From Roseithermus sacchariphilus (GTDB lineage Bacteria; Bacteroidota; Rhodothermia; Rhodothermales; MEBIC09517): a DNA stretch of 64,000 nt. Shown in pieces: positions 4,481 to 52,433 of the stretch. The notes under the pieces were generated by a model. That model searched no databases and had not been told where the DNA came from. It saw only the letters and a list, made by a program, of their open reading frames with translations. The position numbers were made by a program, and so were the translations under genes. Position 1 is the stretch's first letter. Every line of letters begins with the position of its first letter. The stretch is from NCBI GenBank assembly GCA_003285105.1, contig CP030158.1, positions 2,146,501 to 2,210,500 on the forward strand, read 5' to 3'.

Positions 4481-4546
4481 GTCAGCCGTCAGCCTTCAGT
4501 ACAGCTAGCTGAAAGCTGATCGCTGAAAGCTGATCGCTGAAAGCTG
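4481..4546. repeat. Degenerate heptanucleotide tandem array between umuDC and the pyrophosphatase-like gene
   Basis: About nine units with a 7-nt period: GTCAGCC repeated, then alternating CTGAAAG and CTGATCG. The array ends about 5 nt before the stop codon of the minus-strand gene at 4551. Its period matches the arrays at 8674, 11131, 21778, 49850 and 50410. Confidence 0.8.
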
Positions 4547-21777: not shown

Positions 21778-21896
21778 GTGGGCTGCTGGCCGCTGGCTGC
21801 TGGCCGCTGGCCTGCTGACGGACGGCTCACAGCTAACAGCCCACATCTCGCAGCCAGAAGCTAACAGCCCACAGCTAACAGCCCACAGCTAACAGC
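21778..21896. repeat. Seventeen-unit degenerate heptanucleotide array between copZ and csoR
   Basis: The spacer reads as seventeen consecutive 7-mers in one phase, from GTGGGCT, GCTGGCC and GCTGGCT to alternating TAACAGC and CCACAGC. It starts right after the copZ stop codon and ends one base before the csoR start. The units resemble, on the opposite strand, the GTGGGCT/TTCTGGC units of the arrays at 49850 and 50410. Confidence 0.92.
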
Positions 21897-21897
21897 C

Positions 21898-48759: not shown

Positions 48760-49854
48760 ATGAAACGACCGCGTCGGATTTCCCGGGCCGTGCAGGTGGG
48801 CCCCGTACAGGTGGGCGGCGGCGCCCCGATCTCGGTGCAATCGATGACTGTATCGAAGACGCACGACGTGGCGGCGACGCTGGCCGAGGTCGCGCGGCTG
48901 GCCGAGGCCGGCGCGGACATCGTGCGGGTGGCGGTGCCGCGCCCCGAGGACGCCGAGGCCCTGCGGGACGTCGTGCAGGGCAGCCCCGTGCCCATCGTGG
49001 CCGACATCCACTTCAACTACCAGTATGCCCTCAAGGCCATCGAGGCCGGGGTGGCCAAGGTGCGCATCAACCCGGGCAACATCGGCAAGGAGGAGTGGGA
49101 GCGTGAGGTGCTGCTGGCGGCGAAGGAGGCTGGTATTCCCATCCGCATCGGCGTCAACGCCGGGTCGCTGGAGAAGGACATCCTGGACAAGTACGGCTAC
49201 CCGCAGCCGGAGGCGCTCTTCGAGAGCGCGATGCGCCACGTCGAGATCTGCACGAAGCACGGCTTCGAGGACATCGTCATCTCGGTCAAGCACTCCGACG
49301 TCTTCTTCATGATTCAGGCCTACCGGCTCGTGGCGGAGCGGACCGACTATCCGCTGCACCTGGGCGTGACCGAGTCGGGCACGCTGCAGGCCGGGTCGAT
49401 CAAGAGCGCCATCGGCATCGGCGCCCTGCTGGCCGACGGCATCGGGGACACGATCCGCGTGTCGCTGGCGACGGACTCCGTGCACGAGGTCGAAGTCGGG
49501 CATCAGATCCTCAAGTCGCTGCGGTTGGGGCGGCCCGGGGTCAACATCATCGCGTGCCCGACGTGCGGCCGTCTGGCCGGGGATCTGTTCTCCATCGTCG
49601 ACGAAGTGGAGGCGGCCGTCAAGGCCCGCAAGTTCACCAAGGACCTCAACGTGGCGCTGATGGGCTGTGCCGTCAACGGGCCGGGGGAGGCCGCCGGTGC
49701 CGATCTGGGCATTTCTCTGGGACGCGGGCGGGCCCACCTCTTCAAACGTGGCGAGATCATCCGCACCGTGCCGGAGGAGGAGATCGTGGAGGCCGTCCTG
49801 GAGGCCATCGAGGCCTGGGAGGAAGACGAGACGACGGCCGAGGCCACCGGCTGA
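48760..49854 (+). CDS. ispG: 4-hydroxy-3-methylbut-2-en-1-yl diphosphate synthase (flavodoxin)
   Basis: A 364-residue iron-sulfur enzyme of the MEP pathway that converts MEcPP to HMBPP. The TIM-barrel part has ISVQSMTVSKTHDV, VPIVADIHFNYQYAL and KVRINPGNIG. The 4Fe-4S ligands are Cys266 and Cys269 (IIACPTCGR) and Cys303 (LMGCAVNGPGEA), with Glu310 beside it. The length is that of the short bacterial type without the large insert. Its TGA stop codon lies within the first unit of a heptad repeat array. The 177-nt upstream spacer after the EEP gene holds a few GC-rich hairpins but no clear terminator. Confidence 0.96.
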   Translation: MKRPRRISRAVQVGPVQVGGGAPISVQSMTVSKTHDVAATLAEVARLAEAGADIVRVAVPRPEDAEALRDVVQGSPVPIVADIHFNYQYALKAIEAGVAKVRINPGNIGKEEWEREVLLAAKEAGIPIRIGVNAGSLEKDILDKYGYPQPEALFESAMRHVEICTKHGFEDIVISVKHSDVFFMIQAYRLVAERTDYPLHLGVTESGTLQAGSIKSAIGIGALLADGIGDTIRVSLATDSVHEVEVGHQILKSLRLGRPGVNIIACPTCGRLAGDLFSIVDEVEAAVKARKFTKDLNVALMGCAVNGPGEAAGADLGISLGRGRAHLFKRGEIIRTVPEEEIVEAVLEAIEAWEEDETTAEATG

Positions 49855-49933
49855 AAGCTGTGGGCTTCTGGCTGTGGGCTGCGGGCTACGGGCTTCTGGC
49901 TGCGGTGCGGGCTGACCGCTGAAAGCTGCAGGC
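49850..49933. repeat. Heptanucleotide array overlapping the ispG stop codon
   Basis: Twelve consecutive 7-mers (GCTGAAA, GCTGTGG, GCTTCTG, GCTGTGG, GCTGCGG, GCTACGG and so on, to TGCAGGC). The ispG stop TGA (49852-49854) is inside the first unit. The 40 nt at 49883-49922 recur exactly at 50410-50449, on the other side of the 165-bp array. Confidence 0.92.
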
Positions 49934-49935
49934 AT

Positions 49936-50405
49936 CGTGCTGGAACGAGTTCTTCCCCCTGGCCGCAGGCCTTACAGGGGGAAGTCCCCGCAGGGGGAAG
50001 GGGGTCCACATTCGTCGCTGTGCCGCCATCGTCCGGGGGCTACCCCTCCGTCGCTGCGCGACACCTCCCCTTCGCAAGGGGAGGATTTGGATGGCGCCCT
50101 CGTGCTGGAACGAGTTCTTCCCCCTGGCCGCAGGCCTTACAGGGGAAAGTCCCCGCAGGGGGAAGGGGGTCAACATCCGCCGCTGTGCCGCCATCGTCCG
50201 GGGGCTACCCCTCCGTCGCTGCGCGACACCTCCCCTTCGCAAGGGGAGGATTTGGATGGCGCCCTCGGATCGGGCCACGCCCTTCCCCCTGGCCGCAGGC
50301 CTTACAGGGGGAAGTCCCCGCAGGGGGAAGGGGGTCCACATTCGTCGCTGTGCCGCCATCGTCCGGGGGCTACCCCTCCGTCGCTGCGCGACACCTCCCC
50401 TTCGC
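49936..50405. repeat. Three-copy 165-bp tandem repeat with strong palindromes
   Basis: Copies start at 49936, 50101 and 50266, with an exact 165-nt period. Copies 1 and 2 differ at four positions. Copy 3 differs in its first 17 nt, then equals copy 1 until it stops inside the second palindrome near 50405. Each unit holds TTCCCCCTG (49953) that can pair with either of two CAGGGGGAA arms (49975, 49991), and a 21-nt palindrome CCTCCCCTTCGCAAGGGGAGG (50064-50084, 50229-50249). No frame is interrupted by stops because 165 is a multiple of three, but the translation is Arg/Pro-rich and not protein-like. This explains most of the 734-nt gap between ispG and ggt. Confidence 0.95.
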
Positions 50406-50409
50406 ATGA

Positions 50410-50486
50410 GGGCTACGGGCTTCTGGCTGCGGTGCGGGCTGACCGCTGACGGCTGAACGCTGACCGCTGAAAGCTGCGGGCTCCGG
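50410..50486. repeat. Heptanucleotide array after the 165-bp repeats
   Basis: Eleven 7-mers (GGGCTAC, GGGCTTC, TGGCTGC, GGTGCGG, GCTGACC, GCTGACG, GCTGAAC, GCTGACC, GCTGAAA, GCTGCGG, GCTCCGG). The first 40 nt equal 49883-49922 exactly. A TACCTTC promoter-like element for ggt follows at 50513. Confidence 0.9.
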
Positions 50487-50588
50487 CCGCGTGATCTTGT
50501 GTCCGGCGTCTGCTACCTTCCTCCGGTGAACAGCGGCTCCCCGGAGCCCCACCCCCGTTTTCCCGATCCGCATCGAAGAGGCCATCCC

Positions 50589-52433
50589 ATGGTTCGTCTC
50601 CCTCTGCTTCTGCTCGCGGCCGGCATGGCGTGCGGTCTGTGCGCGCCCCCCGTTCAGGCCCAGCGTCCCAACAAGCCGGTGCTGCACGGGCGGCACTGGG
50701 TGGCCATCACCGGCAAGCCGCTCGCGGCCACGGCAGGGGCGGCCATCTTCCAGCAGGGCGGCAACGCGGTGGATGCCGCCTGTGCCATGCTGGCGGCGAC
50801 GGCGACCATGTGGGACGTGCTCGGCTGGGGCGGGGAGACGCAGGCGCTCATCTACAACCCCAACACCGGCAAGGTCATCGGCGTCAACGCCCTCGGCGTG
50901 GCTCCGACGGGGGCGACGGCCGACTTCTTCCGGGCGCAGGGCCTGGCCTATCCGCCCGAGTACGGGCCGCTGGCGGCCGTCACACCCGGCACGCCCGGTG
51001 GGCTCCTGGTGATGCTGGCCGAGTTCGGCACGATGCGCCTGGCCGAGGTGCTGGCGCCGGCCATGGAGATGGCCGAAGGCTACCCGATCGAGGCGCAGAC
51101 GGCCGATGCCATCGAGCGGGAGAAGGAGCGCATCAAGCAATGGCCCCACTCGAAGGCCGTCTTCCTCCCGCATCTGGGTGAGCCCGAACGGGAAGCGCCC
51201 TACCCCGGCGAGCTCTTCCGCCAGCCCGACCTGCTCGCCACCCTGCAGAAGCTGGTCGACGCCGAAGCGCAGGCCCTGGCCGAGGGCAAGAGCCGCAAGG
51301 AGGCCATCTACGCCGCCTACGACCGCTTCTACCGGGGCGACATCGCCGAGGAGCTGGTGCGCGGCACGCGCGCCGAAGGAGGGCTGTTGACGATGGACGA
51401 CCTGGACCGCTGGCAGGTCTACCTCGAAGAGCCGGTGATGACCACCTACAAAGACATCGAAGTCTACAAGCTCACCTCGTGGGTGCAGGGGCCCGTGATG
51501 CTGCAGATGCTGAACATGCTCGAAACGTTCGACCTGCCCGCGATGGGCTACAACAGCGCCCGCTACATCCACACCCTCTACCAGGTGATGAACCTCGCCT
51601 TCGCCGACCGCGACTTCTACTACGGCGATCCCTATTTCCCGCCCGAGGAGCCGCTCGAAGGCTTGCTCTCGAAGGACTATGCCCGCGCCCGCGTCCGGCA
51701 GATCGACCCGGCGCGCAACGACCCGAACGTGAAGCCGGGCGACCCCTATCCGTTCCAGGGACAGGAAAATCCGTACCTCCACTACCTGGAAAACTGGTCC
51801 GTCGTGACGCCCGCCCGGCAGGATGACGCGGCCTTCGACGCCGACTTCTACGCCGGGACGACCTCCATCCAGGCGGCGGACGCGGCGGGGTGGGTCGTCT
51901 CGGTCACGCCCAGCGGCGGGTGGATCCCGGCGTTCATCGCCGGGGAAACCGGCATCGGGCTGAGCCAGCGGATGCAGAGCTTCGTGCTCGATCCGGCCGA
52001 GAACCCGTTCAACGTCGTCGAGCCCGGCAAGCGGCCGCGGGCCACGCTGACGCCGGGGCTGGCGCTCAAAGACGGCCGGCCCTACCTCTCCTTCGCCGTC
52101 CAGGGCGGGGACAGCCAGGACCAGAACCTGCTCCAGTTTTTCCTGAACGTGGTCGAGTTCGGGATGGACGTGCAGGAGGCTGCCGAGGCGGCCAACATCA
52201 ACAGCTTCCAGCTCAAAGGCTCCTTCGGCCAGCACGAGTCGCGACCCGGCCGGCTGTTGCTGCGCGAGGACGTGCCGGGATGGGTGCGCGCCGAACTGGA
52301 GGCGATGGGGTACGACCTCACGTTCGAGGAGCGCACCTCGGGGCCGATCAACGCCATCTTCTTCGACCACGAGCACGGCACGATGTGGGGCGGCTCCAGC
52401 GATCACGGCGAGGATTACGGCATCGCCTGGTAG
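50589..52433 (+). CDS. ggt: Gamma-glutamyltransferase family protein
   Basis: A 614-residue exported Ntn-hydrolase. It has a signal peptide (MVRLPLLLLAAGMACGLCAP ending in VQAQ), then the large-subunit region with GAAIFQQGGNAVDAACAML and GPLAAVTPGTPGGLLVML, and the small-subunit region with the conserved WVVSVTPSGGW. The self-cleaving Thr should be Thr424 or Thr425 in YAGTTSIQAADAAGW, where the common motif is TTHxSVVD; the missing His makes the start of the small subunit atypical. Such enzymes hydrolyse or transfer gamma-glutamyl groups (glutathione) in the periplasm; the substrate here may differ. ATG 50589 begins the signal peptide. A TACCTTC promoter-like element lies at 50513. Confidence 0.85.
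   Translation: MVRLPLLLLAAGMACGLCAPPVQAQRPNKPVLHGRHWVAITGKPLAATAGAAIFQQGGNAVDAACAMLAATATMWDVLGWGGETQALIYNPNTGKVIGVNALGVAPTGATADFFRAQGLAYPPEYGPLAAVTPGTPGGLLVMLAEFGTMRLAEVLAPAMEMAEGYPIEAQTADAIEREKERIKQWPHSKAVFLPHLGEPEREAPYPGELFRQPDLLATLQKLVDAEAQALAEGKSRKEAIYAAYDRFYRGDIAEELVRGTRAEGGLLTMDDLDRWQVYLEEPVMTTYKDIEVYKLTSWVQGPVMLQMLNMLETFDLPAMGYNSARYIHTLYQVMNLAFADRDFYYGDPYFPPEEPLEGLLSKDYARARVRQIDPARNDPNVKPGDPYPFQGQENPYLHYLENWSVVTPARQDDAAFDADFYAGTTSIQAADAAGWVVSVTPSGGWIPAFIAGETGIGLSQRMQSFVLDPAENPFNVVEPGKRPRATLTPGLALKDGRPYLSFAVQGGDSQDQNLLQFFLNVVEFGMDVQEAAEAANINSFQLKGSFGQHESRPGRLLLREDVPGWVRAELEAMGYDLTFEERTSGPINAIFFDHEHGTMWGGSSDHGEDYGIAW

Follow-up and report, generated by a model that had tools for sequence, protein, structure and literature searches.

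Background

The BoxC/PIT/TM motif of E. coli folds as a triplex in vitro when supplied as oligonucleotides (Holder et al. 2015, PMC4666352). In the available parts of that report, the motif is described as intergenic and as marking unstable sites, no association with mobile elements was found, and strain K-12 is given five inverted pairs, which belong to two types. PIT elements are stated there to have shown no promoter or terminator activity in earlier work. The same parts hold that purine-motif triplexes cannot form in RNA, exclude a quadruplex for TM_ECO by NMR, and report in-cell footprinting that revealed no stable triplex, a result that counts against in-cell folding. Loops were limited to 1-6 nt in the ITxF search and to 0-10 nt in the work of Hoyne et al. 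(2000, 2002), as given in PMC4666352.

We analyzed a 165-bp tandem array located in a 64,000-nucleotide stretch of Roseithermus sacchariphilus DNA (the whole stretch is called the window here). The repeated unit is probably an inverted pair of class II triplex motifs that derives from a MITE, was amplified in place, and persists as a structural and mostly selfish repeat. Neither a hairpin-connected triplex form nor a MITE with such a motif was found described in the open-licence literature searched.

Results

The array and its setting

A tandem-repeat scan (TRF) reported a repeat at positions 49935-50406 with a period of 165, 2.9 copies and a score of 851. Together with an alignment of the copies, this defined the array at 49936-50406, to which no strand was assigned. 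On the plus strand, copy 1 (49936-50100) is matched by copy 2 (50101-50265) at all but 4 of its 165 positions, and the exact period and four mismatches of the first-pass annotation were thereby confirmed. Copy 3 (50266-50406, plus strand) is shortened and has a different leader: every one of its 10 mismatches to copy 1 (141 positions compared) falls within the first 16 nt, and the remaining 125 are identical. An assembly artefact is an unlikely source of the array, because the copies differ mutually and arrays of 2 to 7 units occur at other loci.

Heptanucleotide repeats with GCT every 7 nt, found by TRF on the plus strand, flank the array on the left (49857-49914) and on the right (50437-50476). 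Within the tracts on both sides, 40 bp of heptad-type sequence recur as a perfect direct repeat (plus strand, 49883-49922 to the left of the array and 50410-50449 to its right). Degenerate repeats of this type also occupy other gaps of the window, at 4507-4546 and 21781-21897. The neighbors of the array are a 364-aa ORF (48760-49854) and a 644-aa ORF (50499-52433), which had been proposed as candidate ispG and ggt. No phage matched a 485-bp query, and the only plasmid match, to Vescimonas, was partial, with 21% covered; a plasmid or phage origin was rejected.

Two modules on opposite strands

Each unit contains two modules. In copy 1, module A (49952-50005, letters checked and mirror rule applied) lies on the plus strand and consists of a pyrimidine arm (49952-49961), a hairpin-capped loop (49962-49974), a purine arm (49975-49984), the connector hairpin TCCCCGCAGGGG (49985-49996) and the mirror tract GAAGGGGGT (49997-50005). 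Module B (50042-50084), assigned from checked letters, family matches and the mirror test, lies on the minus strand, which is its G-rich strand. It comprises the hairpin CCTCCCCTT-CGC-AAGGGGAGG (50064-50084), a connector hairpin (50050-50062) and the mirror tract GGAGGGGT, the complement of 50042-50049. Read along its G-rich strand, module A is CTTCCCCCT-capped loop-AGGGGGAAG-hairpin-GAAGGGGGT and module B is CCTCCCCT-loop-AGGGGAGG-hairpin-GGAGGGGT, so that both follow one order of pyrimidine arm, loop, purine arm, hairpin connector and mirror-image purine tract. In both, the last tract is the purine arm reversed, with T facing the first A. A mirror tract has no Watson-Crick reason, and an antiparallel purine third strand demands one, which leads to the triplex reading. 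At the level of sequence, the module order is the rule of the class II intrastrand DNA triplex (BoxC/PIT/TM).

The unit's two palindromes are therefore better read as two triplex motifs on opposite strands, a feature that the first-pass annotation had missed. It had described one TTCCCCCTG arm facing two CAGGGGGAA arms, which holds in copies 1 and 3, whereas copy 2 has CAGGGGAAA in place of the first CAGGGGGAA arm. The 21-nt palindrome CCTCCCCTT-CGC-AAGGGGAGG that it reported is intact in the first two copies but disrupted in the third. The two arms that it took for alternative stems do exist, but they are better read as the purine arm and mirror third strand of a triplex motif.

Class II membership was considered feature by feature. 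The arms and the mirror third strand are present with a stem of at least 6-7 nt, and all 36 two-hairpin elements of the window's own genome score 6 or 7 of 7. The loops are not the short ones of published searches (1-6 nt or 0-10 nt): the connector between purine arm and tract measures 14-16 nt in module B of this genome and 12 nt in module A. Published searches would miss the window's motif because its second loop is a hairpin that exceeds those limits. A short second loop is a limit of the published searches and not a structural law, and the window's motif thus counts as a class II variant.

A dispersed family in the genome

The genome is a single complete contig of 4,807,988 bases, in which the array region gave 54 matches, the window locus included. 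A 24-base piece of module B matched 46 times at up to 3 mismatches and its reversed control never did. Together these counts exclude a chance origin, and they identify the dispersed element that had been suggested from the array alone. We fetched 35 stretches around the matches and laid out 45 places, which with further matches make about 37 loci. Module A, a linker and module B are found at most of the 45 places, and a single module at some. Tandem copies are frequent: one locus has seven, the window and one further locus have three each, and several have two. Mean identity was 0.961 within fetched stretches (39 pairs) vs 0.865 between them (951 pairs), indicating that tandem copies arose or were homogenized in place; the recent local amplification or conversion proposed earlier is thus upheld.

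A heptad tract adjoins the element on at least one side at 39 of the 45 places and on both sides at 21, compared to 4% for random 90-mers from the same stretches. Matches to the heptad pattern number 555 in this genome, six others of the same order have none, and the tracts listed are frequently without an element nearby; the heptads are thus a separate repeat, specific to the window's genome among those tested. Beside the elements at L022, L036 and L041 there is a shared sequence starting TGTCAGTCCCTGCGGAAGCC, of which a similar form exists in the relative G010 (nested insert, L204). Another shared sequence, AGAGGTATTATCGAAAGTTGTGGATGAGC or its reverse complement, stands beside the elements at L014, L019 and L040.

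The largest element-free gap of the chromosome (2.71-4.03 Mb, 27% of its length, outside the window) has its midpoint at 3.37 Mb, near the point opposite dnaA at 3.33 Mb (simulated p 0.0004 to 0.001). Among the places listed for G010, about 2.6-4.06 Mb is nearly empty. Since dnaA lies at 2.32 Mb in that genome, its gap is not opposite dnaA, and no general position rule follows.

By a home-made gene caller, 33 of 34 clusters with at least two modules overlap no predicted gene. Of 56 clusters, 51 could be classified by gene context (5 lay at stretch edges), giving 32 tandem, 13 divergent and 6 convergent gaps against a background of 45, 32 and 6 among 83 gaps longer than 150 bp; this count keeps single weak matches, some of them inside predicted genes, its background includes element gaps, it depends on the same gene caller, and we base no claim of a context bias on it. 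These contexts bear on the idea of a transcription terminator or attenuator between the two flanking genes, to which we give hardly any credence. Stable hairpins are present in the gap, which would suit such a role, but 13 of the 51 classified clusters sit in divergent gaps, PIT elements lacked terminator activity according to the available parts of PMC4666352, and positions 49700-50700 contain no hairpin followed by a T run (0.5 in shuffles), contrary to the terminator-like character first proposed. The structured RNA suggested at the same time found no counterpart among known families, as Rfam gave no match up to E 5 in 49000-51200.

The hairpins might instead be REP/BIME-like palindromes that act as protein sites or RNA 3' structures, the mirror tract being incidental. 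The element resembles the REP families of PMC3733652, in the parts of that paper available, in being intergenic, dispersed, palindromic, arranged in inverted pairs and present in many phyla. We nevertheless regard this explanation as unlikely. The Y1 transposase is absent: the RAYT family PF01797, which would be expected of the REP kind of element first suggested, has 0 matches in the window's genome and was found in 5 of 14 control genomes. The unit is a composite of two modules and not a 20-40-bp palindrome with a GTAG or CGTC tag; where the letters CGTC appear in some B modules, they belong to the connector stem, and the GGCCC type does not have them. There is also no bias towards convergent gaps (6 of 51 classified clusters), and REP/BIME palindromes leave the mirror tract and the joint base change reported below unexplained.

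A MITE in a relative

In G010, a genome of the same order and another family, modules B and A form the body of a MITE. They lie between inverted copies of CTGATGTTACGCAGT, which are 15 bp long and mostly ~250 bp apart. Target duplications were compared in 11 elements: four have an exact 7-bp duplication, two match at 6 of 7 positions and the other five have none in that register; left and right flanks swapped between elements never match at 7 of 7. The MITE connection raised by the first-pass annotation was thus substantiated through a relative. The window's genome retains only end remnants, with three MITE ends adjoining such modules. At the window array the terminal inverted repeats are absent and a target duplication is undefined.

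Some G010 elements contain nested insertions. A nested insert starting TTGACAGGGGTAGGTTTTCATA is found inside the MITE in both genomes, at L204 and L221 in G010 and at L196 (1346072) in the window's genome. The exact MITE end is present in 2 of 114 genomes of the order. No pairs of MITE ends were seen around the 20 matches to DDE_Tnp_1 examined, out of 21 in the two genomes, DDE_Tnp_1 being the transposase family covered, and within this scope a transposase bearing the MITE ends was rejected. A plasmid origin of the G010 MITE was likewise rejected, as the MITE gave the same single plasmid record (Vescimonas) as the array query.

The same design in other bacteria

Contigs were scanned for ACCCCTCCG-N(12-30)-CACCTCCCCT-N(2-10)-AGGGGAGG, with the gap chosen to leave out the form of the window's own genome. 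At least 118 stretches across phyla were returned. Those listed include Sphingomonas, Sphingobium, Novosphingobium, Robertkochia, Butyricimonas, many Clostridia and Oscillospiraceae bins, a Phascolarctobacterium bin and an Omnitrophota bin; part of them are metagenome bins, for which single taxon assignments may be wrong. Judged by these sequences, the design occurs in Flavobacteriaceae, Sphingomonadales, Clostridia and an Omnitrophota bin.

Among the matches listed (at least 130, with 110 distinct gaps), 95 of the 110 connectors have a stem of at least 4 pairs, compared with 4% of shuffles; a stricter count without offset gave 28% vs 2.5%. The gaps vary in sequence yet remain self-complementary. 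The genomes of 30 of the 118 listed loci, picked for carrying the pattern, contain a related pattern 762 times (1 to 122 per genome), and its reversed control once. These results agree with the statement, in the first-pass annotation, that similar palindromes occur in other bacterial genomes. The highest of the 30 counts, 122 hairpin-connected matches, belongs to a 2.1-Mb clostridial bin (G486, the genome of L097). Within the window's own phylum, the strict pattern was found in 4 of 394 sampled genomes and a looser one in 55 of 296, where the control marks many single matches as chance.

The mirror rule

Elements for the mirror test were chosen by their two hairpins alone from the 118 listed loci, with pattern-selected elements masked. 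The 113 elements obtained had a mirror score of 6.25 of 7, vs 5.37 when partners were shuffled (not above 5.57 in 300 runs); a direct copy scored 5.2. A score of at least 6 was reached by 94 of them and missed by 19. The mirror also fits 36 of 36 elements of the window's genome, 8 of 8 in G010 and 5 of 7 in other relatives; the own and G010 elements are uninformative under shuffling because each set is nearly one sequence.

Outside the selected elements, 481 purine-arm hairpins on both strands were followed after 7-45 nt by 100 exact mirror tracts. Permuted arms gave 12.2 (maximum 19 in 30 draws) and direct copies 19. At connectors of 0-6 nt, the published limit, there were 15 exact mirror tracts vs 1.8. 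A stem of at least 4 pairs is present in the connectors of 78 of the 100, compared with 11% of shuffled ones. The arms and tracts are varied and include AAGGGAG with GAGGGAT, AAGGGGG with GGGGGAT and GGGAGAG with GAGAGGG.

This variety bears on a G-quadruplex formed by the two G-rich tracts with the connector hairpin in its loop. GGGGAGG and GGAGGGG do supply four G runs, and quadruplexes compete with triplexes in similar archaeal repeats in the available account of PMC8044849. The pairs AAGGGAG/GAGGGAT and AAGGGGG/GGGGGAT, however, have only two long G runs, and a quadruplex requires neither the mirror order, nor the pyrimidine arm, nor T opposite C. With the NMR result for TM_ECO (PMC4666352, as far as available) added, a quadruplex element seems quite improbable.

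Joint base changes

Genomes of the window's own phylum have either G or C as the closing base of the purine arm. For the base-change count, 146 places were listed among a larger match set, of which 72 are hairpin-connected. At these, an arm G is accompanied by a third-strand G in 33 of 33 cases, and an arm C by T in 36 of 39, by C in 2 and by G in 1. Counted as distinct strings per genome (arm/third strand), there are 17 G/G, 13 C/T, 2 C/C and 1 C/G. The 74 listed places that have no hairpin connector follow no such base rule. At other loci, 14 distinct arm-C elements have T in 13 cases and G in 1, with the pyrimidine-arm G in all; only these 14 are free there, because 102 of the 116 G/G cases come from a pattern that fixes those bases. 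Across these sequences a C-G-G triple is thus swapped for G-C-T as a whole, the counts being of sequences and not of independent evolutionary events. In the antiparallel motif, T is a tolerated third base at a C-G pair. The passage on third bases in the available part of PMC9177962 concerns a parallel design.

Covariation in the connectors of the window's own genome is modest, with 2 of 5 pairs changed on both sides among 9 sequences (7 of 500 shuffles reach the score). In 2 of the 9 distinct module B sequences from the window's genome and relatives, the arm is exchanged and its partner is not. Misfits to the triplex rule are the 15 of 110 gaps that have no 4-pair stem by the score used, the 19 of 113 elements with a mirror score below 6 and the 3 of 39 arm-C cases that are not T.

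The symmetry could also be MITE debris, merely inherited from few ancestors with no DNA structure selected. The G010 MITE with its target duplications and the strong local duplication are in keeping with this, but the same rule recurs with different arms and connectors in several phyla, and arm and third-strand bases change jointly. Inheritance of this kind is in our view very unlikely to account for the element.

Discussion

The preferred reading, an inverted pair of triplex motifs, predicts how the element might behave. The 165-bp unit carries the module A motif on the plus strand and the module B motif on the minus strand, so that either strand could fold. When a G-rich strand becomes single-stranded at replication or transcription, its arms would pair as a hairpin, the mirror tract would fold back into the groove of that hairpin, and the connector hairpin would hold the turn. 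A block folded in this way would be expected to stall the polymerase, and the flanking heptads and neighboring copies would supply the homology that slippage needs, in line with the tandem arrays and their local homogenization. The module pair became embedded in heptanucleotide repeats and was amplified where it lies; slippage or unequal recombination at stalled replication is the likeliest route. The MITE body accounts for spread in G010; for the copies that have no MITE ends in the window's genome, recombination between heptad tracts is our guess.

The element is best seen as a structural repeat that would destabilize its site and is presumably mostly selfish; a regulatory role for the two neighboring genes is not indicated.

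We tentatively raise the broader possibility, to which we do not commit ourselves, that across several phyla such elements have been evolutionarily tuned triple by triple for three-stranded folding, both arms and the third tract changing jointly and a connector hairpin of free sequence keeping the turn. If true, this would provide evolutionary support for the formation of intrastrand triplexes in cells and for their importance, whether to the host or to the spread of the element itself. The existence of DNA triplexes in living bacteria is an old open question that footprinting in E. coli left unsettled. A joint change of three bases in natural diversity is a different kind of evidence, and it opens the question to sequence surveys and to tests on small sets of mutants. 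That a widespread class escaped searches limited to short loops would be explained by the hairpin connector, and carriage by a MITE offers the motif a means of spread.

Comparison with known systems

The statements that follow concern the parts of each cited source that were available. Archaeal repetitive G4/triplex sequences (PMC8044849) are likewise intergenic, G/C-rich repeats able to form an antiparallel triplex. In them the third strand flanks the hairpin on the opposite side, and those parts describe no hairpin connector. The REP/BIME families with GTAG and CGTC tags (PMC3733652) share with the element intergenic palindromes, a range across many phyla and inverted pairs; the element differs in being a composite of ~150-165 bp that has no tag, no RAYT in the genome and a mirror tract. 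MITEs such as that of Porphyromonas gingivalis with its internal minisatellite (PMC4596501) are similarly short and non-coding, with a tandem repeat linked to the MITE, and in G010 the likeness extends to inverted ends and target duplications. Unlike in such MITEs, the body consists of two triplex motifs, the ends are lost in the window, and a partner transposase was not found among the DDE_Tnp_1 matches.

BoxC/PIT/TM_ECO (PMC4666352) likewise runs from pyrimidine arm through purine arm to mirror third strand, with a third-strand T opposite A, and is also G/C-rich, intergenic and dispersed in inverted pairs of two types. Its second loop is ~3 nt long, whereas here it is a hairpin of 12-30 nt with free sequence. 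The arm sequences and taxa are also different here, the motif is MITE-borne in a relative, and it has undergone tandem amplification.
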